Source of the DNA: a virus
DNA: 64,000 nucleotides
Strand: one strand, 5' to 3'
Virus record (IMG/VR): IMGVR_UViG_3300037189_016726
Span: 22,751-86,750 of that record
Shown here: piece by piece, positions 13,988 to 64,000 of the stretch
Layout: every line of letters begins with the position of its first letter
Position numbering within the stretch: position 1 is the first letter of the stretch
Notes under the pieces: generated by a model
What the model was told of the DNA's origin: nothing
Databases searched by the model: none
Seen by the model: the letters and a program-made list of their open reading frames with translations, nothing else
Position numbers and translations under genes: made by a program

Positions 13988-15547
13988 TCAAATCTCATGA
14001 ATTTGGTTGATTATGAAAGACGAATCATGGTCAGCAACGCTACCGCAAAAGATTAGATTATTCCCCTCGTATAGTACGTATTTGTATTTTTCTTTGACTT
14101 TTGGGAATACTATAACACTATCAAGTATACATGAGTCATCTTCTATTGTTAAAAATGACATCATTTGCCCCTTTGATTCACCCTTAGTTATTTTATAGTC
14201 AGAAACTCTTTGAACATTAGCAACTACGCACAAATCTTTACCCTTCTTACCATTAACAATATCTTTACATGTTGTGTTAGCCGCAGAGGTATCCGATGTT
14301 TCAATCTTTGTCATTGTTACTGGACAACCCAAGAATTTAACTTCTTGATCTATTAACCAACTTGGTTCATCCTCCAAGTCATATGGAGGATTTACCAAAA
14401 GCTGTATCTCATTCTCTATAAATTGTTTTCTATCAGCTTTGCTTGTTCCACCACCCTCTTTTTTAGTTGGAGCTAAGTCTTTCAAGCAATCGATAAATGT
14501 TTTCCATTTTTTAGATGGATACTGATTTAATATCCACGTTTTCTCAGCCTGTGTCAGATTTTTAAATATGTCATAATCATATAGCGCTTTATTCCTGCTA
14601 ATTTTTTCTGAAAAATCACGATAGAATCCTATAGACGCTAACGCTTTAAATGATGTTGAACTAACGTTAGAACTAAAGTATATCAATAGTTCAACCCATG
14701 AGAATTTGGTTATTTTCTTATTAGCAATTTTTTCAGCCTCACTAATAGCTTCTATTAACTTGTCGCCCGTTTTACCAGTTAATGATTTGATATCTTTAAT
14801 TCCAAAGTATATCTTGCCATTCTTAAAATTGAACTTTGTGTCAAAGTTTGCAAGACTTGGAGTTCTTACTTGTATATCAAATAACTTCGCTTCCGAAATA
14901 AGCTCATAAACCTCTTGATGAGGGTCTTGTTTTTCATTAGCGTAATATAGGTATGATAAGAAGAATTCTGGAGTATTGTGAGCTTTATAATACGCACTCC
15001 AGTACGAACATACAGCATAAGATATGCTATGAGACTTATTAAAAGCATATCTAGCGGACTTCTCAATCCATCCGAAAATTTGTTCTGCTTCTTCTTTTGT
15101 TACCATACCAACTCGCTGTGATCCCTCAATGAATGATTTCTTAACTTCGTTCATGAGATCAGCCTTTTTCTTTCCGATGGCCTTACGAAGAACGTCAGCC
15201 TCTTGTAGATTGAAACCGGCGACCTTCTGGGCTATACGCATAGACTGCTCTTGATAAACTAGAACTCCATACGTTGGCTTTAAGATTTCTTCTAGAGATT
15301 CATGTAGGTACGTAACCTCTTCCCTGCCGTGTTTTCTATCCACGTAATGCTGAGTCATAGACTTTCCATCAACGAAAGCTTTTAATGTTCCCGGCCTAAT
15401 AATAGCAATAAGAGCAGACAGTTCTTCAATGTTGGTAGGAGCAACTTTCTTAGCCCAAGCTTTACCAAGATTACTTTCTAGCTGAAAAACACCTTTGGTC
15501 TTGCCTTCTGCAAATAATTGCCAAGTTTTTTTATCATTGTAGTCCAT
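13988..15547 (-). CDS. dnaE: DNA polymerase III alpha subunit, C-terminal half
   Basis: The protein opens with a short lead and then GVFQLES and IIRPGTL, which in full-length DnaE follow the palm domain. The fingers region follows (YGVLVYQEQSMRIAQKVAGF, then ADVLRKAIGKKK). The last 90 residues form an OB-fold-like end. ATG 15547 is preceded directly by an in-frame TAA, so it cannot extend upstream. With the N-terminal product (16568-18196) it adds up to about 1060 residues, close to a whole DnaE. The two halves must assemble, as no splicing signal is visible. It overlaps the upstream endonuclease gene by 14 bases. Confidence 0.92.
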   Translation of the reverse strand: MDYNDKKTWQLFAEGKTKGVFQLESNLGKAWAKKVAPTNIEELSALIAIIRPGTLKAFVDGKSMTQHYVDRKHGREEVTYLHESLEEILKPTYGVLVYQEQSMRIAQKVAGFNLQEADVLRKAIGKKKADLMNEVKKSFIEGSQRVGMVTKEEAEQIFGWIEKSARYAFNKSHSISYAVCSYWSAYYKAHNTPEFFLSYLYYANEKQDPHQEVYELISEAKLFDIQVRTPSLANFDTKFNFKNGKIYFGIKDIKSLTGKTGDKLIEAISEAEKIANKKITKFSWVELLIYFSSNVSSTSFKALASIGFYRDFSEKISRNKALYDYDIFKNLTQAEKTWILNQYPSKKWKTFIDCLKDLAPTKKEGGGTSKADRKQFIENEIQLLVNPPYDLEDEPSWLIDQEVKFLGCPVTMTKIETSDTSAANTTCKDIVNGKKGKDLCVVANVQRVSDYKITKGESKGQMMSFLTIEDDSCILDSVIVFPKVKEKYKYVLYEGNNLIFCGSVADHDSSFIINQIHEI

Positions 15548-15905
15548 TTAAATAATCCAATGCTCTGTGTAATAATATTGTACTATCATTTAGATGACCT
15601 AAAGCTCTATTACATTTATGACATAGCCATCCTCTAAATTTTTTAGTGGTATGGCAATGATCTACTACCCAAGGTCCAGAAGATTTACCACCTTCTCCAT
15701 TACATTCTTGTCCAGATCTTTGACATATTGGGCAATTATATGTTAAGTCTGGTTCTTTGTGTTCTTTTCTTAAGTTTTTACGCAACTTACTCATAGCATT
15801 ATTACAATTTTTACATTCAGATCTTGGATATGGTCTTCCACTATGTCTACTGAATTTATCTAGTGGCAATGATTGTTTGCATTTACTGCATATTTTATTT
15901 AACAT
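15534..15905 (-). CDS. Endonuclease VII-like HNH nuclease inserted between dnaE halves
   Basis: I choose ATG 15905 (MLNKICSKCKQSL). It shares 11 bases with the exonuclease stop and avoids a longer overlap. The protein has zinc-binding CSKC and CKNC pairs, then CPIC and the nuclease core VVDHCHTTKKFRGWLCHKCN, with ALGHLND at the end. This is the recombination endonuclease VII pattern, a family also used by free-standing homing endonucleases. Its place between the polymerase halves suggests it caused or marks the split. Whether it cuts intact dnaE alleles is inference. Confidence 0.85.
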   Translation of the reverse strand: MLNKICSKCKQSLPLDKFSRHSGRPYPRSECKNCNNAMSKLRKNLRKEHKEPDLTYNCPICQRSGQECNGEGGKSSGPWVVDHCHTTKKFRGWLCHKCNRALGHLNDSTILLHRALDYLNGLQ

Positions 15906-16575
15906 ATAGACCACCATTCGCAAATGCTTTATCAAAAGTTATGTTCTGATAGACTGATCGATGTGTTTTCATTAGCTTGATAAAGATGTTGGCCTCGTCC
16001 TTAACGTCTTGTAGAGCGTCGTGAGCATTTTCTTTGCTAAGACCCATTCTTTCTCGTAGAGAATCCATGCTAATTGACTTTACTGATGGATCACTTTCTG
16101 TCCAAACAAAAACATTATCCATAATATCAACCTTGTAAACTTTACTAAATAGTTTCTGCTGCTCTCTTTCCTTATCCCAAGGACCATACTCTTTACAGAG
16201 TCTATTGATAATATGCATATCAAATCCAAGAATATTAAAACCAACAGGAATAGGAGCAAAAAATGGATCGCCCTTCCAATTATATTGATCAACAAACTTG
16301 ACAAATTTTGACCATACAGACTTAATAGACGGTGCTTCTGCTAAAGCTTCTCTAGTTTTACCAGTAATTTTTAAAGCCTCATCTTGAAGAGGATCTAAAC
16401 CAAGAGATAAAGCTTCTTGATCATCAAGTATGGGTTTAATTTCACTATTAAATTGCCCTTTCATTGATAAGTTTCTACCATCAAGAGCTATTGCAGCAAT
16501 CTGTGTTGGTTGGGTTTTGTGTGGATTTCTTGAACCTGTTTCAAAATCAAATATAATATAATCTCTATTAGCCAT
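15895..16575 (-). CDS. DnaQ-type 3'-5' proofreading exonuclease
   Basis: The 226-residue protein has the three DEDDh exonuclease motifs: FDFETG near residues 9-14, NILGFDMHIINR near 115-125, and HDALQDVKDEANI near 182-194 with the catalytic histidine. Such enzymes remove mismatched 3' ends. It overlaps the stop of the polymerase N-terminal gene by eight bases and precedes the polymerase C-terminal gene, so it is made with both halves. The polymerase PHP domain has lost several metal-binding residues, which fits proofreading being supplied by this protein. Confidence 0.9.
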   Translation of the reverse strand: MANRDYIIFDFETGSRNPHKTQPTQIAAIALDGRNLSMKGQFNSEIKPILDDQEALSLGLDPLQDEALKITGKTREALAEAPSIKSVWSKFVKFVDQYNWKGDPFFAPIPVGFNILGFDMHIINRLCKEYGPWDKEREQQKLFSKVYKVDIMDNVFVWTESDPSVKSISMDSLRERMGLSKENAHDALQDVKDEANIFIKLMKTHRSVYQNITFDKAFANGGLYVK

Positions 16576-18196
16576 TTTTTACTCCGGTTAGGTCTTGTAT
16601 CATCATAATTTTGTCTAGTAAATTAATTCCTAGAACGTCAAACTTGACATGACCAAGAGCTTCTAGGTCTGTCATCTCCAACCCTGCAATTTTCTCAGAC
16701 GAATCACGCTGTTTAACCATTGGACAAACAGTATTTAACTTTTTAGCCGATATAACAACACCAGCGGCATGTTTACCTTGTGTTTTAAATGTTCCTTCAA
16801 TTTTGATGGCTTGATCAAAATATTCTGCATAGTTTCCTTCTAATTTACCATCATCATTTATATAGCAAAAATCTCTCAATTCATTAGCATTATTTATCAA
16901 TGCCCAACGTATGATTGATCTATGTTCATCATCCATATCCGCAAGCTGATCTGAAATTTCAGCTTCGTTAGGAATACTCTTTGTTATAGCATTCATTTCA
17001 CCAAAAGAACATGCCTCATTGATACGCAATACTTCTTTAATAGCACTTCTTCCCTGTAGTCTACCAAATGTGATCATTTGACTAACGTGGTCGCTACCAT
17101 ATTTCTTCTTAAGATATGAAATAACTTCATCACGTTTTTTGCCGGGAACGTCCATATCAATATCTGGCAGTGAGATATGGTCTTCACTATTTCGTCCAGC
17201 ATTATAAAATCTAGCAAACAATAGGTCAAATTCTATTGGATCAATCTTTGTTATTCCAATAAGATATGATATTAAACAACCGGCGGCAGAACCTCTACCG
17301 GGACCACAAAGCCAGCCCTGACTTTCACAGTAATGAATAATATCCCGAACTATTAGAAAATAACCGAATAGATTGGCACCCTTAATTACATCAAACTCCT
17401 CTTTAAATCTATCTAGATATTTCTGTTTATCTTCTGGCTTAGAAACCTTATCATTATCTATTAATAGACTTTTCCAACCGATGCGGCATAGTTCTTTTAA
17501 GTAGTCTTCTTCTGTTTGATCATTTGGACATGAGAACTTTGGCAAGTTGGGCTTACTAAGAATATCATAATCTTCGCACTGATTATAAATATCTTCCAGC
17601 TTATCTGTTTCTAATTCTTTTGATTCATCCTTATCAAGAACATAGAATGTGTCAGACATGAAGTAATTTAATTTATCCATATGGCTGTTCATATCTGAAC
17701 CAACATTTACATTCCCGCTCTTATCCTTTCTGATAGCTTTGTTAACTCTTGGTAGAGTTGTTTTCATATCAGAGCATAGCAATATTCTATGCAATTTAGC
17801 ATCTTCCCTATTGGTATAGTAGCTTATGGGAATAGACTTGCTTGGAGAATTAGAAAGTTTTATCAAGTTATTCTTATTGAATATTTTGTTAAATATCGCT
17901 TCTGACAAATCGCCATTTTCGTCAATAGATGATACCAACTCTATTAGGTCGTGCCACCCATCTTTATTCTTAGCAAATACCTTAAACTTATCAAAAGAGC
18001 ATCCTATTATTGGCTTAATGCCATTACTTTTACAAGCCTTATAAAAAGATATTGCGCCAGATATAGTCTTATGGTCGCAAATACCGCAAGCTATATAGCC
18101 ATTAGCTTTACACTTTTCTGCCAATTCTTCTGGCTTTGAAAAGCCTTTAAGTAAACTATAATGGGTATAGTTATTCAATGGAAACCAAGATGACAT
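16568..18196 (-). CDS. dnaE: DNA polymerase III alpha subunit, N-terminal half
   Basis: I choose ATG 18196 (MSSWFPLNNYTHYS) behind AAGGA over a TTG 18 bases upstream. An N-terminal PHP domain (YTHYSLLKGF, ICDHKTISG) is degenerate: the Asp of the usual YSLLDG is Lys, and the Glu after IIGC is Ser. The palm has CGPGRGSAAGCLISYLIG and LPDIDMD with two catalytic Asp. The third catalytic Asp is in HVKFDVLG, only 22 residues before the stop. The gene ends exactly between palm and fingers; the remainder is encoded at 13988-15547. It overlaps the exonuclease gene by eight bases. Confidence 0.93.
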   Translation of the reverse strand: MSSWFPLNNYTHYSLLKGFSKPEELAEKCKANGYIACGICDHKTISGAISFYKACKSNGIKPIIGCSFDKFKVFAKNKDGWHDLIELVSSIDENGDLSEAIFNKIFNKNNLIKLSNSPSKSIPISYYTNREDAKLHRILLCSDMKTTLPRVNKAIRKDKSGNVNVGSDMNSHMDKLNYFMSDTFYVLDKDESKELETDKLEDIYNQCEDYDILSKPNLPKFSCPNDQTEEDYLKELCRIGWKSLLIDNDKVSKPEDKQKYLDRFKEEFDVIKGANLFGYFLIVRDIIHYCESQGWLCGPGRGSAAGCLISYLIGITKIDPIEFDLLFARFYNAGRNSEDHISLPDIDMDVPGKKRDEVISYLKKKYGSDHVSQMITFGRLQGRSAIKEVLRINEACSFGEMNAITKSIPNEAEISDQLADMDDEHRSIIRWALINNANELRDFCYINDDGKLEGNYAEYFDQAIKIEGTFKTQGKHAAGVVISAKKLNTVCPMVKQRDSSEKIAGLEMTDLEALGHVKFDVLGINLLDKIMMIQDLTGVKNG

Positions 18197-18238
18197 ATTA
18201 TTCCTTATCTTCAATGTGTATGCTTACGCTATCAATCT

Positions 18239-22314: not shown

Positions 22315-23333
22315 TAATACGTTCCTTTAACTTGTGGTAGTATCTTCTTTTCAATTTGATCGATAGACATTTCGCCAATATCTTTAGATGGTAATTTGGG
22401 AAATGTTAACTTGAAAGACCTTCCAAGCTGTCTTTGTATTTGTGTTTTTGATTCTCTTCCAGCTTGATCATTATCAGTCAATATTATAAGATGTGTTATT
22501 GGCATCTTTAATAATTTGTCTTCCTGTTCTTTTGTGATTGTTTTTCCCAATATCCCAACAACGTTTTCTATTCCAGCTTCATATAATCTCCAGACATCGC
22601 CCTGTCCTTCTACTAAAAATAAGCAACCGATTGATGATGCTTTTTTAATAGCTCTATGGTGATTGTAAAAAAAATATCTTTTGTCAAAACCTTTTGGATT
22701 GAATAGAAATTTTGGTAATTTATAGTCTTTTATTGATCTTCCTATTAGGGAAACTAGTTTGCTTCCATCGTCGTTGTGTATCGGTATGATTGCTCTATCA
22801 TAGAGCTTTGATTTGGGATTAACACAGTCTCCAACTCCAAAATATTCCAAAGTTTCTTTTTTGAAACCCCTTGATATAAAATATGGTGATGGAATTTTGA
22901 TATCACATTCTGCATTTATTTCATTATGTTCTTTTTGCTGTATAGATGAGTTTAGTAGTGACACAAGCTCTACGAATTCATTTGGTTCTTCTATAGCCTG
23001 TTTATGCTGCACCTTGCCGCGTTTTAAATCTAATAGGTCGCAGGACCACTTTAAAGCCTCTTTAAAACCAACATCAACCCCTTCGCTACTTGATAAAGCT
23101 CCTCGTATTATACCGAAAATATCATTATTGTACTGATGCTGACAATCCCTAGTCCAACATTTCCATATTCCCTTATCTATAGAATATGAGAATGCTCTTG
23201 GATTATCACTTCCTTCATGTACTGGACATTTTGAGTAGATATTGTCTCCTAGTATCTCGTACTCCATATCCAATTTTTTAAAGACTATCTCAGCTTTACT
23301 GTTCAAGAGAATCTTGAGTTTGTGTAAGTCCAT
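22314..23333 (-). CDS. DnaG-type primase
   Basis: An N-terminal zinc finger of the CHC2 type is visible (C36, H39, C59, C64), followed by a TOPRIM domain with FLVEGQGDVWRL (E242) and LIILTDNDQAGR (D287, D289). These are the metal-binding residues for RNA primer synthesis. At 339 residues it is shorter than bacterial DnaG and lacks the C-terminal helicase-binding domain. Its start overlaps the helicase gene by 38 bases, so the two are expressed together and probably act together at the fork. Confidence 0.9.
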   Translation of the reverse strand: MDLHKLKILLNSKAEIVFKKLDMEYEILGDNIYSKCPVHEGSDNPRAFSYSIDKGIWKCWTRDCQHQYNNDIFGIIRGALSSSEGVDVGFKEALKWSCDLLDLKRGKVQHKQAIEEPNEFVELVSLLNSSIQQKEHNEINAECDIKIPSPYFISRGFKKETLEYFGVGDCVNPKSKLYDRAIIPIHNDDGSKLVSLIGRSIKDYKLPKFLFNPKGFDKRYFFYNHHRAIKKASSIGCLFLVEGQGDVWRLYEAGIENVVGILGKTITKEQEDKLLKMPITHLIILTDNDQAGRESKTQIQRQLGRSFKLTFPKLPSKDIGEMSIDQIEKKILPQVKGTY

Positions 23334-39803: not shown

Positions 39804-41648
39804 TTACTGTGGAAAATGTACATATAATGAATATCTATTTTGGGTGGTTACAACATTTCCGTTAGTTATATCAACACTACAAGGTTGTGGTAGTCTGTCG
39901 CTTTGAGTAGCAAATTTATAGTATTTTTGATATCTAGGATCATAATAAGCAGCTTTATACCATTCATGTAAACTTGGAATTACTGCTTTTTCCGATAGCG
40001 CTCTTTGATAATAGCCGCTATAATCTTCATTATTAGATAAATCATATGCGCCAGTTTCTGTGCTATCGGACGTTCCTCCAAAAGATGGTTTGTTATTGTG
40101 TAACCAATTACAATATCTAGCAGCATGAATCCAATTTAAGCCAACCGCTGGTCTGCTTAAATTGTAAGAATAAACAAAGTATCTATTTCCAACCGGCCGA
40201 GTGGAGTCAAATAGTAATTGGTTTCCATAACTAGATTCTAGAGCTACTAATGAACCAGATACTAATTTCATGCCAATCGTACAGTATTTTAGATTAAGGT
40301 GTTGAGCGCCGGTTGGATCAACAGTATTTAAATATGTAACGAATTCAGAAAATGTTAGTGGGTTTTTTTTAATCCAATATGGATAATTAACTGTTCCAAT
40401 ATTTTGTAAACCTAGTTCTAGTGTGGATGGTATGTCATACCTATATCTACTTTCTCCTTGTGTTATTGTGTCGCTAGGATTTGAAATATTTCCAACCTCT
40501 GCCCATAAACTACTTTCATTTTGTGGAGGTGGTGAACACCTTACAATTCTAAGTCCAGTAGGATTATTGTCACTTTTTTGTAGAGTACTATTATAATAAG
40601 TTGATAGATTTGGAGCATTTTTTGCTGGAAATGTATAGTGTATCGCAACTCTTTGATTAAAGTAGGTGATTTGATCATTCGTTAATATGAAAGCGTTGTC
40701 GTATACTGATCCACCAAGAGCTACTCTAGTACTTCCAGCGTAATAAGACCCAGCACCGGCGAAATCATCTATATATTCATAAATATTTCCATCTTGACCA
40801 TATGTTCCGTAATAACTTGGGTTAGTTGATGTGCTAACATTTACTGGAAGAATCTCTAGTTTTGATGTATTATTATAAGTTGGTCCTGTTCCGGCATCAT
40901 TATAATACGTATAGCCAAGAGTTTGATTTCCATAGGCCGCGTATGTTATTGCTATTCCGGGAACTGCCGTTGTGGTAGTTGTTGTTGAAGTTGTTGGGCC
41001 AGATGTTGTAGTTGTTGTTGGGCCAGATGTGGTGGTGGTGGTGGTGGTTGTTGGACCAGATGTTGTGGTGGTGGTTGTTGGACCAGATGTTGTGGTCGTT
41101 GTTGGACCAGATGTAGTAGTTGGTCCAGATGTTGTTGTGGTCGTTGGACCAAGCGTGGTAGTGATAATACTACAGTCTAATGTTCCACACTCAACAGCAT
41201 AAATACTTAAAGTTAATGGATTACTCCAATATCCAATTGCTGGAATTTTAGTTGAAGAAGCGTTAACAATTTTAATTGATATTTCGTCATTATTACTAAC
41301 ATATGAGTAAGCTATTACTGTTCCAGATAAAAGTTCTCTTGATGGAGAAACCGATATAGAATATGCTTTTGATGTTAAAACGCCGGGAACATTTACTGTT
41401 AGAGTGTGACTTGAATTTACTAATATTTCTGGGAGAGTATAAACGCAAGATCTACGTGTAAAAATATTATTGTTGTTATCTCCACCAATTGATGGTAGTT
41501 GACTCCAAGTTTTTACACCGTCACCAACTTTTAATAAATTTGCATCGATAGCAAAAGCTGGTTCTCCAGAAGCTAAAACTGGATTTGCATCATTAAACTC
41601 AGAAAGAGGTCCGCGACGAATTTTAATAGTATCATAAAAAGTAGTCAC
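39804..41648 (-). CDS. Tail-fibre/adhesin with Mtd-like N-terminus, Thr linker and FGE-like C-terminus
   Basis: Translation starts at GTG 41648. The N-terminus (KIRRGPLSEFNDANPVLASG) matches the short tail-fibre protein at 38049-38330. Residues about 170-230 are a Thr/Ser/Gly/Pro linker (SGPTTTT units). The C-terminal 370 residues resemble a formylglycine-generating-enzyme/C-type-lectin fold with NWIHAARYCNWLH, then ETGAYDLSNNE and PSLHEWYKAAYYDP. In phages such folds bind receptors. I see no diversity-generating retroelement beside it. Receptor binding is inferred. Confidence 0.8.
   Translation of the reverse strand: MTTFYDTIKIRRGPLSEFNDANPVLASGEPAFAIDANLLKVGDGVKTWSQLPSIGGDNNNNIFTRRSCVYTLPEILVNSSHTLTVNVPGVLTSKAYSISVSPSRELLSGTVIAYSYVSNNDEISIKIVNASSTKIPAIGYWSNPLTLSIYAVECGTLDCSIITTTLGPTTTTTSGPTTTSGPTTTTTSGPTTTTTTSGPTTTTTTTTSGPTTTTTSGPTTSTTTTTTAVPGIAITYAAYGNQTLGYTYYNDAGTGPTYNNTSKLEILPVNVSTSTNPSYYGTYGQDGNIYEYIDDFAGAGSYYAGSTRVALGGSVYDNAFILTNDQITYFNQRVAIHYTFPAKNAPNLSTYYNSTLQKSDNNPTGLRIVRCSPPPQNESSLWAEVGNISNPSDTITQGESRYRYDIPSTLELGLQNIGTVNYPYWIKKNPLTFSEFVTYLNTVDPTGAQHLNLKYCTIGMKLVSGSLVALESSYGNQLLFDSTRPVGNRYFVYSYNLSRPAVGLNWIHAARYCNWLHNNKPSFGGTSDSTETGAYDLSNNEDYSGYYQRALSEKAVIPSLHEWYKAAYYDPRYQKYYKFATQSDRLPQPCSVDITNGNVVTTQNRYSLYVHFPQ
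40969..41160 (-). repeat. Low-complexity SGPTTTT-coding repeat
   Basis: Repeats of a unit coding for SGPTTTT, in seven to eight near copies, encode the linker between the N-terminal module and the C-terminal lectin-like domain of the adhesin. Unit lengths vary by whole codons. Confidence 0.8.
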
Positions 41649-58255: not shown

Positions 58256-58579
58256 CTAGGGTCTATTTTTAATTTTTTCATAGTAAATCTTGCAATCCTT
58301 TACAACGTTTTCATTCCAACTTTGATAGTTCATTAAATGACCAAACACAAGATGGCAAGGGTAATCACATAAAGATATCAAATTTTCTGGGGCTAATTCT
58401 AATTCTGGATTTGAGTGAAATGGTTTTATGTGATGAACTTGTATATTTTTATTTTTGCCGCAAGCAGCACAGTTAGGATTATTTTCCAAATGTTCTTTTC
58501 TTACTCTTGACCACGATCCAGACCTAGTTAAGTAATCGTCTATTTTGAACAAGGACTTGAATAATTTTTCGAAGATCAT
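58256..58579 (-). CDS. HNH endonuclease, small type
   Basis: I choose ATG 58579, whose ATGA overlaps the protease stop. The 107-residue protein has an HNH core: CAACGKNKNIQVHHIKPFHSN, then ENLISLCDYPCHLVFG. HNH proteins of this size are found in phages as homing or packaging-linked nucleases. No terminase lies beside it, so a free-standing role is more likely. Confidence 0.85.
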   Translation of the reverse strand: MIFEKLFKSLFKIDDYLTRSGSWSRVRKEHLENNPNCAACGKNKNIQVHHIKPFHSNPELELAPENLISLCDYPCHLVFGHLMNYQSWNENVVKDCKIYYEKIKNRP

Positions 58580-59343
58580 TTGTCTTGTTCTGCTTTTTCT
58601 ATAGCTTGCATTGCTTCTTTTATCCACTCAATAAATAAACTTACTCTTGTATGTCCTGACCAATCATCAATATTAGAATCTAGTTTCTTATCTTCTGTAA
58701 AAACGCAAGAGTGAATTCCTGCTAATTTATTATCTATAAATAGCCCACCACCGCTATCGCCATGACATATCAAAAATTCTAAACTGGTTCTTTTACCGTT
58801 TTTTAAGGAGCATATTAGCAAATCGCGGTCAATTGTGTCTATTATATTTGAACCGCCCCTTTTTATATCATCGATTTTTCTTTCTAAATTTTGAAAAGCT
58901 CCAGTGACTCCAAATCCAGCCATGCTGCAAATTTTACCAACTTCATCGCTTTTTGTATATAATTCTGGATAAAATCCTATATTAGCATCTTGTTCTAAAT
59001 GACCTATACCAATATCGTATTTTCCAAAATTATTTTCTTCGTATGATCCGTGATGAGCTATAAAATCTATAGGTATTGTTTTTTCACCAATAATAATTCG
59101 ACATTTTTTACTGCCCTTTAATACGTGTGCGGCTGTCAAAATCCATCTTGGTTTAATAACTACTGCTGATGCATAAAAATAGGTGCTTTTTTCATTATCA
59201 TAATTACCCTCTATTTTTACTACAGATTCATGTTTATTTCCATATTCTATATATTTAGAATCTGGTATATTTTGATCTATTGTACCACCTAAAAGATTAA
59301 GCGGGAAAAGCCCTAGAATTAAGGCTATTAATATTTTGTACAC
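58576..59343 (-). CDS. Secreted trypsin-like serine protease
   Basis: The start is GTG 59343 with AAAGGAG seven bases upstream. A signal peptide (MYKILIALILGLFPLNLLGG) leads to a trypsin domain with H73 (TAAHVL), D110 (YDIGIGHL) and S197 (CHGDSGGGL). At 255 residues it is a complete S1 protease. It should act outside the cytoplasmic membrane, on host-surface proteins or during release. Exported proteases are unusual in phages. Confidence 0.88.
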   Translation of the reverse strand: MYKILIALILGLFPLNLLGGTIDQNIPDSKYIEYGNKHESVVKIEGNYDNEKSTYFYASAVVIKPRWILTAAHVLKGSKKCRIIIGEKTIPIDFIAHHGSYEENNFGKYDIGIGHLEQDANIGFYPELYTKSDEVGKICSMAGFGVTGAFQNLERKIDDIKRGGSNIIDTIDRDLLICSLKNGKRTSLEFLICHGDSGGGLFIDNKLAGIHSCVFTEDKKLDSNIDDWSGHTRVSLFIEWIKEAMQAIEKAEQDK

Positions 59344-59915: not shown

Positions 59916-61235
59916 TTATAGTTTAATTTCGTAACGTCTATCATACCTAAATTCATCTTTAATTTTTCTCAATAAATTAAGGTCTGTTGTGGGCGGTAAA
60001 GCATACGGGTGTTCATTTACAAAAAATTCAATTTGTAATGATCTTTCTGTTAAATAAGTAGATATGTTCTCACCATCTGATGCTCTTTTACAATACTCTT
60101 TAAATATTTTTCCATCTATATTTAGATTTCCTTCAATAATTTGTTTATTTTTGATTATTTTAATTGCTTGATTGATTAATTCTACTAAAGGATTAACTTC
60201 TAAGTTATTATATTTGTATCTATCGTAATAAAGTGAAGTTACATAATATGTTCCAGCACAAATAGGCTGTTCCATATATGCTGGAATTAAATGATCGGCT
60301 TGTTTAGATTCTAATATTTTAAGATTACCTCTTACGCCATTTGTTTGAGTGTGTTCTATGTAACCAATATTGATATTGACTGCTCCCCTTTTTAAGAAAG
60401 GTGCATACAGCATTGCCGTACCGGGAGCAGTAATTTGAATATCTACATTTTGAAAATCTTCCATTTGTTTTTTAAAAGTTTCATTGCCAAAATGTTTATA
60501 ATCATGATACCAGTCTACAAATTTTATATCGCATATATTATACAATTTACTAATTACAATATCAATAATTTCTTTATCTTTACTATCGAATCTTTTATTG
60601 TTTATTATGATAACTTTTGGGCGATCTATGTTTAAAGGTTTATCTAATTCAATATTGTTTACTTCAAAAATTCTTTTCTTAAACTGATGTAAGCCATCCC
60701 ATTTTTTGCCATAAATAAACATTTCTTTATTAACTACTCTATTGCCTGCTAAATCTGTTCCTGCAACTAATGTTTTAAAGTGATATATTTTATTTTTGTC
60801 TAGATTAGGATATTCTAAAAGATCTTGTTTTGTAAAATTTTTAAGAACATAGTACATCATATTTTCTCTCCATGACCAATCTAGAGACAGAAAAGTAAAT
60901 GGTTCATTAACATAGCCAAATTTTAGTAATGATAGATATATAGGATAAAGAACATCAAATAAACCATGCCCAACATTTCCATACCATGAATTATCGGATA
61001 ATACAGAAAGAGTTATTTCTTCAATATTATTTAAAGATTGTACATAATCTTCTAGTTTTTTTTCAGAATCAAACTTTAATATTTCTGGTTTCCAATCATA
61101 TGATATTGTAAATTTTTTAACAGATGGTAGAGTAATATCTTCTGTTGTTAGAAAATAAATTATACCATTTATAGAGTATAGATTTTTATATTCTATACTT
61201 GTATCGTTATCTGTTAATTTATAGCTAGAAATCAT
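59916..61235 (-). CDS. GT61-like glycosyltransferase
   Basis: The 439-residue protein has the GT61 (DUF563) pattern: NSWYGNVGHGLFDVLYPIYL near residues 82-101 and the late DIQITAPGTAMLYAPFLKRG, then AVNINIGY. Family members add xylose or GlcNAc from nucleotide sugars. It overlaps the GT6 gene by four bases, so they probably act on one glycan. No transmembrane segment is clear. Family assignment is moderate. Confidence 0.7.
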   Translation of the reverse strand: MISSYKLTDNDTSIEYKNLYSINGIIYFLTTEDITLPSVKKFTISYDWKPEILKFDSEKKLEDYVQSLNNIEEITLSVLSDNSWYGNVGHGLFDVLYPIYLSLLKFGYVNEPFTFLSLDWSWRENMMYYVLKNFTKQDLLEYPNLDKNKIYHFKTLVAGTDLAGNRVVNKEMFIYGKKWDGLHQFKKRIFEVNNIELDKPLNIDRPKVIIINNKRFDSKDKEIIDIVISKLYNICDIKFVDWYHDYKHFGNETFKKQMEDFQNVDIQITAPGTAMLYAPFLKRGAVNINIGYIEHTQTNGVRGNLKILESKQADHLIPAYMEQPICAGTYYVTSLYYDRYKYNNLEVNPLVELINQAIKIIKNKQIIEGNLNIDGKIFKEYCKRASDGENISTYLTERSLQIEFFVNEHPYALPPTTDLNLLRKIKDEFRYDRRYEIKL

Positions 61236-61996
61236 ATTAAAATTAATTTACCATCTTGGAAATTGTATAAGTTGTTTTTATTGATTAACATTTCTTGTTT
61301 TAAAGAAGAAATATCTAATTCAACATCCCTTGTTTCACCTATCGCTCCTTTATCACTTACGTTAAACAGATATTCATCAAGAAGAACCGTTCGTGTGGGA
61401 GGGTTATAATGATAATACTGATTGATATAGCTTTCGTCATTAACCCCAGGTTCATAAGGAATTTTTTGATCTTCTAATTGATTTTCTCTAAGAACTTTAC
61501 AAACTTCAATTATTTTATTTTTAGTTCCACCAAATAAACAACCATGATAGTACATTTGAAATAAAGTTGTATCAAGAGGAACATAAGCTTTTGATTGAGG
61601 ATTTCTATCATATCCTTTTAAATCTTTCATCCAGCCATTGTTTCCAAAATGTTCTAATCCAACTGTGTCACCAATAAACCAATCAGTATCAAAATCTTTA
61701 GATACGCTGGTATCAGCATCAAAGTAAATCAAATAATCACTATCAGAATTTTCTAAAGAAAGTATATTGGTGAATTTTGAATTAGTCCCGTCTAGCCAAC
61801 TTGTATGTTTATTGTAATGATATTCCACATTTATATTATCTGGTAGGTAGGGGTGGGGATCTTCATCAGAAAAAAAGTAGAATTTGATTTCTGATTCACC
61901 CTTATAGTGGTGCATAAATTGTTTTATAAATCTTATACCTAACACAAAATAAGCATTGGTTGCTAGTATCACTATTCCTATTTTAGTTTTATTCAT
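61232..61996 (-). CDS. GT6-family glycosyltransferase (ABO-type fold)
   Basis: The 254-residue protein matches the GT6 family of alpha-1,3-galactosyl/GalNAc transferases: YLIYFDADTSVSKDF with the DXD at 93-95, YYHGCLFGGTKNKII near 149-163 and VNDESYINQYYHYNPPTR near 185-202, ending VLLDEYLF. Bacterial and cyanophage members are known. The enzyme should use UDP-Gal or UDP-GalNAc. It is coupled to the GT61-like gene. Confidence 0.83.
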   Translation of the reverse strand: MNKTKIGIVILATNAYFVLGIRFIKQFMHHYKGESEIKFYFFSDEDPHPYLPDNINVEYHYNKHTSWLDGTNSKFTNILSLENSDSDYLIYFDADTSVSKDFDTDWFIGDTVGLEHFGNNGWMKDLKGYDRNPQSKAYVPLDTTLFQMYYHGCLFGGTKNKIIEVCKVLRENQLEDQKIPYEPGVNDESYINQYYHYNPPTRTVLLDEYLFNVSDKGAIGETRDVELDISSLKQEMLINKNNLYNFQDGKLILI

Positions 61997-63377: not shown

Positions 63378-63417
63378 CTTATCCTCCTTGATATTAATCT
63401 TGATAGTTAAGAAAAGA

Positions 63418-63453
63418 CCCCCGAAAGTGTGCATTGTTAAGAGGCATCGGGGG
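63418..63453 (-). terminator. Rho-independent terminator after small secreted-protein gene
   Basis: CCCCCGA (63418-63424) and TCGGGGG (63447-63453) form a seven-bp stem with a 22-base loop, followed on the minus strand by TCTTTTC. It separates the genes at 63475-63690 and 63045-63377. Confidence 0.7.
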
Positions 63454-63714: not shown

Positions 63715-63730
63715 GCCACATCCATGTGGC
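63715..63730 (-). terminator. Hairpin terminator after tmRNA
   Basis: GCCACAT (63715-63721) pairs with ATGTGGC (63724-63730) around a two-base gap. On the minus strand A/T-rich TAGTTTTAAC follows. It lies 18 bases beyond the tmRNA 3' end. Confidence 0.65.
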
Positions 63731-63747
63731 TCAAAACATAATACCAG

Positions 63748-64000
63748 TGGACTAGAGGGGAGTCGAACCCCTGTCCAGAATAAATATCAATATAAACTTC
63801 TACATTATTATTCAGTTGTTATCACACTACTGACAAAGCTATCAGAATTATCTGAATCAGATTGAGTACAATCATTATTCCTATTTATGTCTGGTAGGAC
63901 TACCATATCCGATTATCGGAGTCAGCATGATTTGGTAATAAGGCTCATGCCGCCCCACTCATTACCTAATTAATTAGGCAGCGAGAGCGAGAGTTACTTC
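63748..64000 (-). ncRNA. ssrA: tmRNA (3' part; 5' end outside window)
   Basis: Read on the minus strand, the tag codons at 64000-63977 give Glu-Val-Thr-Leu-Ala-Leu-Ala-Ala followed by TAA at 63976-63974, the standard degradation-tag ending. About 200 bases follow, with pseudoknot-like pairing potential. The 3' end has a T-arm AGGGG/CCCCT around TTCGACT and an acceptor strand CTAGTCC with discriminator A at 63748. CCA is not encoded (CTGG follows). The 5' half and the full tag lie beyond base 64000. tmRNA rescues stalled ribosomes and tags the nascent protein for proteolysis. A phage copy is rare. Confidence 0.9.

Follow-up and report, generated by a model that had tools for sequence, protein, structure and literature searches.

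Introduction

tmRNA genes of phages are already known, and the gene described here is a well-supported new example. Among 18,146 phage genomes, 402 were found to have one (PMC9004378); a list of ten tmRNA phages is available (PMC4131195), and huge phages can carry both tmRNA and SmpB (PMC7162821). The known one-piece forms, from Bacillus phage G, mycobacteriophages Bxz1 and Wildcat, Streptomyces phages and the fecal phages cr7_1 and cr124_1, are likewise encoded by large tailed phages (PMC4131195). The tmRNA of the marine methylophage Melnitz resembles the present one in belonging to aquatic phages but is permuted, in two pieces, and placed under a glutamine riboswitch (PMC9004378), whereas the gene described here is in one piece; a default Rfam scan of the window gave no riboswitch match.

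The window is a stretch of 64,000 nucleotides of a viral contig (IMG/VR record IMGVR_UViG_3300037189_016726, positions 22,751 to 86,750). Its tmRNA shares with the bacterial one-piece tmRNA (ssrA, RF00023) the acceptor with G3-U70, the T-arm, H2, an H5 with the stop codon, four pseudoknots, and a GE...ALAA tag following TTAAnTGGC, in a context most like that of Bacteroidota. It differs from bacterial ssrA in being phage-borne, in leaving CCA unencoded, in having its tag frame within a covarying hairpin, and in a sequence only distantly similar to those of the cellular tmRNAs examined (34.6 bits at best with nhmmer). Annotated phage tmRNAs match only at the T-arm/acceptor end, over 8-10% of the query. 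Full-length matches to the family were absent from 50,697 phage records, and 72,556 plasmid records gave no match; a DNA search with the last 4 kb of the window found nothing among annotated phages.

Results

A tmRNA gene cut by the contig end

The final 256 bases of the window belong to a tailed-phage tmRNA gene of the one-piece type and comprise its 3´ two-thirds. On the minus strand, 63745-64000 matches RF00023 with 44.0 bits (E 5.2e-16) and is flagged as 5´-truncated. This is 3 bits below the gathering score of 47 because the 5´ end is cut off, and the tmRNA is for that reason unlisted in a default Rfam scan of the window; ARAGORN did not report it in the window either, where the gene is truncated. 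Base 64000 of the window is base 86750 of the 86,750-base record, i.e. the contig end, which accounts for the absence of the 5´ third. The 5´ strand of the acceptor, the D-loop, PK1 and the resume codon were consequently read in homologues. The opposite end of the contig was considered as the location of the missing part and rejected, as it holds a repetitive reading frame and not tmRNA. The near-identical stretch CTCTCGCTCTCG, common to many strains, may account for the contig break. The stored stretch of another record (L041, 131 kb) likewise ends within the tmRNA tag region. The permuted two-piece model RF04321 scored 21.4 bits on the window against a cut-off of 47, and the homologues are colinear one-piece genes in which permuted gene order was not found.

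The covariance matches, the homologues and the phage context support the original prediction, namely that the phage encodes a tmRNA whose tag ends in ALAA, and the two landmarks of the prediction were recovered as described. The tag and its stop codon read GAA GTA ACT CTC GCT CTC GCT GCC TAA on the minus strand of 63974-64000. The T-arm and acceptor strand without CCA, placed at 63748-63775, lie within 63776-63745, which reads GGAC-AGGGG-TTCGACT-CCCCT-CTAGTCC-A-CTG. The features in window coordinates are:

63745-64000, minus strand: 3´ two-thirds of the one-piece tmRNA (RF00023 match, contig end, full-length homologues)
63974-64000, minus strand: tag frame EVTLALAA and TAA (window sequence)
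63958-63985, minus strand: H5 region, a helix enclosing the stop codon of the tag, CTC/GAG and CCTAA/TTAGG (structure model helices 7 and 8)
63925-63954, minus strand: PK2, GGC/GCC crossed with GCATGA/TCATGC (both-side changes, helices 9 and 10)
63879-63920, minus strand: PK3 region, hairpin TCCGA/TCGGA, and TGG/CCA crossed with TCCTA/TAGGA (helices 11-13)
63813-63836, minus strand: PK4, with TTGT/ACAA crossing another helix of 3 bp, at which the window has the compensated variant CAG/CTG (helices 16 and 17)
63776-63797, minus strand: 3´ strand of the long helix H2 (helices 2 and 3)
63756-63772, minus strand: T-arm AGGGG-TTCGACT-CCCCT (helix 18)
63748-63755, minus strand: acceptor 3´ strand CTAGTCC and discriminator A (63748), with CCA not encoded at the 3´ end (sequence and homologues)
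63715-63730, minus strand: terminator-like hairpin GCCACATGGATGTGGC with a T-rich stretch behind it, a short way 3´ of the tmRNA (consensus scan, weak on its own)

Full-length relatives

Pattern searches with the T-arm/acceptor and the 5´ part located the gene in more than 35 viral contigs; in this set, the closest copies reach 92-94% identity to the window over approximately 250 nt. Full-length copies of the main family measure 349-359 nt and score 80-98 bits with Rfam. Two siblings, L182 and L190, were found via the proteins encoded beside the tmRNA of the window. They are colinear with its last 10 kb (83-96% and 78-86% identity, respectively) and have a complete tmRNA gene, 93-94% identical over the shared part and scoring 97.5 and 93.8 bits with RF00023. 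More diverged copies are present in L191 and L195 (88.5 and 106.5 bits), and still more distant ones, with the tag GETQLALAA, in L192 and L193. The covariance search by which the prediction was to be checked thus gives clear matches, with complete siblings and homologues at 80-106 bits and the cut piece of the window at 44.0 against 47.

In the siblings, the tmRNA starts approximately 5 nt past the stop codon of the upstream gene and is therefore probably co-transcribed with it and then processed. ARAGORN, as run here, recovered 10 of 30 full-length members and misplaced the tag start in two of these. Since this program was used in published phage surveys and missed the other 20, the published figures for phage tmRNAs may be underestimates.

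Other elements lie in the neighbourhood of the gene in its relatives. A group I intron (L190:3264-3452, 67.9 bits) is found approximately 5 kb upstream of the sibling's tmRNA, endonuclease VII-like genes are located 3´ of the tmRNA in many other relatives, and a DUF1501 gene is at or near its downstream side in several (L031:7815-9059, L006, L046). The DUF1501 genes presumably hint at other hosts, e.g. Planctomycetota; none was found in the contig of the window.

Conserved structure and the alanine identity element

A structure of 93 pairs and four pseudoknots was drawn up manually after the standard tmRNA layout (H1, T-arm, H2, PK1, H5 and PK2-PK4), and pairing was counted on 24 distinct sequences in 2,188 cells. 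Standard pairs occupy 98.9% of these cells, a percentage biased upward because the model was derived partly from L004, one of the 24 sequences. Changes on both sides of a pair are the stronger evidence. They were seen in 22 of the 93 pairs and in 90 cells, compared to 12.3 pairs and 23.7 cells in shuffles, none of 500 of which matched the observed values; when partners were slid, both-side changes fell to at most 3 pairs and 8 cells. Pseudoknots PK2-PK4, present in the window itself, and PK1, read in the homologues, are paired with both-side changes. The T-stem is a perfect 5 bp in the window and shows such changes at 4 of its 5 pairs in the family.

The tRNA-like domain consists of a 7-bp acceptor with G3-U70 and a T-arm and has no anticodon arm, its 3´ half being read in the window and its 5´ half in homologues. 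G3-U70 is the alanine identity element. It is kept across three different acceptor stems, GGGCTAG/CTAGTCC, GGGCCAG/CTGGTCC and GGGGGCG/CGCCTCC. The 5´ strand had been expected to be of the type GGACTAG; the homologues have GGGCTAG with the alanyl G3-U70 pair, and from the acceptor 3´ strand CTAGTCC the missing 5´ end of the window is predicted to be the same. An upstream SmpB-binding D-loop had been expected as well, and the homologues have the D-loop-type segment GGTATCGACAGG.

The tag peptide

With the preceding GGC (Gly) resume codon, taken from the siblings, the full tag is GEVTLALAA. This tag, also that of the siblings, was read alongside GEVSTLALAA, GEVTLTLALAA, GEVNLALAA, GERTFALAA, GKTTLALAA, GKTSLALAA, GETRFALAA and GETQLALAA. 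Every tag read starts with G-E or G-K and ends in ALAA; the internal frame carries this small hydrophobic degradation-signal ending and a stop in H5, and ALAA was found in all full-length homologues read. The tag frame can be folded as a hairpin, GGCGA/TCGCT (structure model helix 6), and copies with GGCAA...TTGC, two distinct sequences, have G-C replaced by A-U on both sides. The context, GE...ALAA after TTAAnTGGC, is Bacteroidota-like, a resemblance that is suggestive only, as judged with a pattern built from the phage tag. The commonest Bacteroidota tag in the same frame context is GENNYALAA (70 counted).

Phage context and possible movement between lineages

The contig of the window encodes RIIA, RIIB, ribonucleotide reductase, primase, a DnaB-type helicase, a UvsX-like recombinase and DNA polymerase, and on the basis of RIIA/RIIB and the replication genes it is a phage. 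Other copies of the tmRNA are located inside phage contigs of 114-238 kb. The syntenic siblings, these contigs of up to 238 kb and the phage genes of the window place the gene within phage genomes, not host DNA. No SmpB was detected in 27 records with the gene or its neighbours, many of them fragments, nor in the contig of the window, and function would therefore depend on host SmpB.

In a tree of the shared tmRNA part, the window forms a group with L182 and L190 (84/85) among tmRNAs of 200-238 kb phages, and L191 and L195 are split off (100/100). The genes around the tmRNA of the window match those of L182, L190, L191, L192 and L195, and its ribonucleotide reductase is 95% identical in L182 and 85% in L192, with no close copy in most of the 200-238 kb records. 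The tree is thus at odds with the neighbouring genes and the reductase, and this discordance of one short gene suggests that the tmRNA has moved between phage lineages.

Other genes were noted on the minus strand of the window. DNA polymerase III alpha is split into two genes (13988-18214), one with the PHP and polymerase domains and the other with the finger domain and the C-terminal part. The halves are separated by genes for an endonuclease VII-type protein (15534-15935) and an RNase_T exonuclease (15895-16575). A tail-type protein (39804-41648) combines an N-terminal Mtd domain with an FGE-sulfatase-like domain at the C-terminus; diversity-generating retroelements mutate targets of this kind. 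A trypsin-like protease gene (58576-59343) and a glycosyltransferase family 6 gene (61232-61996) are also carried by this phage.

An abiF-RNA-like hairpin

A standalone hairpin with a conserved loop, at 63417-63453 on the minus strand and 300 bases from the tmRNA, matches the abiF RNA model RF03085 with 38.3 bits, above the cut-off of 37. It was found in 8 of 15 related phage records at E < 0.001, two of which exceed the cut-off, and base changes leave its pairing intact; its homologues are in L198, L199 and L200-L204, and its exact 22-base core is present in 27 viral contigs. In C. difficile the abiF motif is part of an AbiF RNA antitoxin (PMC12373285), and by analogy the hairpin is possibly a phage-borne mimic of that RNA; no Abi_2/AbiF protein was found in the 25 records checked. 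It could instead be a conserved terminator. This hairpin may be a more interesting lead than the tmRNA.

Discussion

We consider it very probable that the locus encodes a functional tmRNA of the one-piece type, that it belongs to a large tailed phage and is cut by the contig end, and that its trans-translation depends on the host. Its identity, conserved structure, tag, alanine identity element and phage context are shown by the sequences; its expression, charging, tagging, degradation of tagged products and benefit to the phage would, we infer, most likely be those of ordinary trans-translation with host AlaRS, CCA enzyme, EF-Tu, SmpB and ClpXP. Maturation of the tmRNA from a phage transcript would fall to host RNase P and 3´ processing, whereupon the host CCA-adding enzyme would finish the 3´ end and host AlaRS would charge the RNA via G3-U70. 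Host SmpB and EF-Tu would then deliver it to ribosomes that have stalled on mRNA that is broken or lacks a stop codon, and translation would restart at the GGC codon, adding GEVTLALAA with a ClpXP-type degradation signal at the end. The phage may benefit from additional ribosome rescue during the breakdown of mRNA in infection. Sustained translation late in infection, breakdown of host proteins and a tag matched to one protease had been put forward at first as possible roles.

A contig that stops inside the gene could also arise if a phage had integrated at ssrA, a known integration site (PMC11915505), so that the fragment would be host ssrA or an attachment-site remnant. However, the siblings colinear with the window have the whole gene and other copies lie deep within the phage contigs, and on these grounds we reject this explanation as almost certainly wrong. 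No integrase was found in nine records searched or in the contig of the window, and a scan of cellular genomes with the 5´ pattern of the family gave no match. The 256 nt retained is, moreover, long for an att duplication.

Two further explanations accept the gene as that of a phage. It might be transcribed without rescuing ribosomes, as a decaying copy or as a decoy occupying host SmpB or AlaRS. A decoy role has been proposed for an RNA of mycobacteriophage DS6A that has the tRNA-like domain only, a form that can inhibit host tmRNA, as cited in PMC4131195 and PMC11915505, and the failure to detect phage SmpB in the 27 records would suit such a role. The tag frame, its stop, the ALAA end and all pseudoknots are, however, kept with compensatory changes and are not needed by a decoy made of the tRNA-like part, and we regard this as improbable. 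Slightly less credible still is a working tmRNA with the main purpose of adding a phage-specific tag that alters protein fate, by avoiding an adaptor such as SspB or by use of another protease. The phage tags do lack N-Y, residues that Bacteroidota tags of the same frame context commonly have, but the middle of the tag also varies among cellular tags, and the unaltered, ordinary ALAA ending would argue against an exotic protease. Ordinary, host-dependent trans-translation thus remains our preferred explanation. A more far-reaching proposal, a large-phage tmRNA lineage passing between differing phage lineages, with the tag-frame hairpin controlling use of the resume codon and the rescue RNA tuned for infection, appears doubtful.

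The new points are modest: the share of members overlooked by ARAGORN, the location of the tag frame within a hairpin that covaries, and the apparent movement between phage lineages. The tmRNA family is now documented in more than 35 environmental phage contigs. Judged from their sequences, the conserved ALAA tag and structure would argue that large phages keep a real trans-translation capacity, relying on SmpB of the host.
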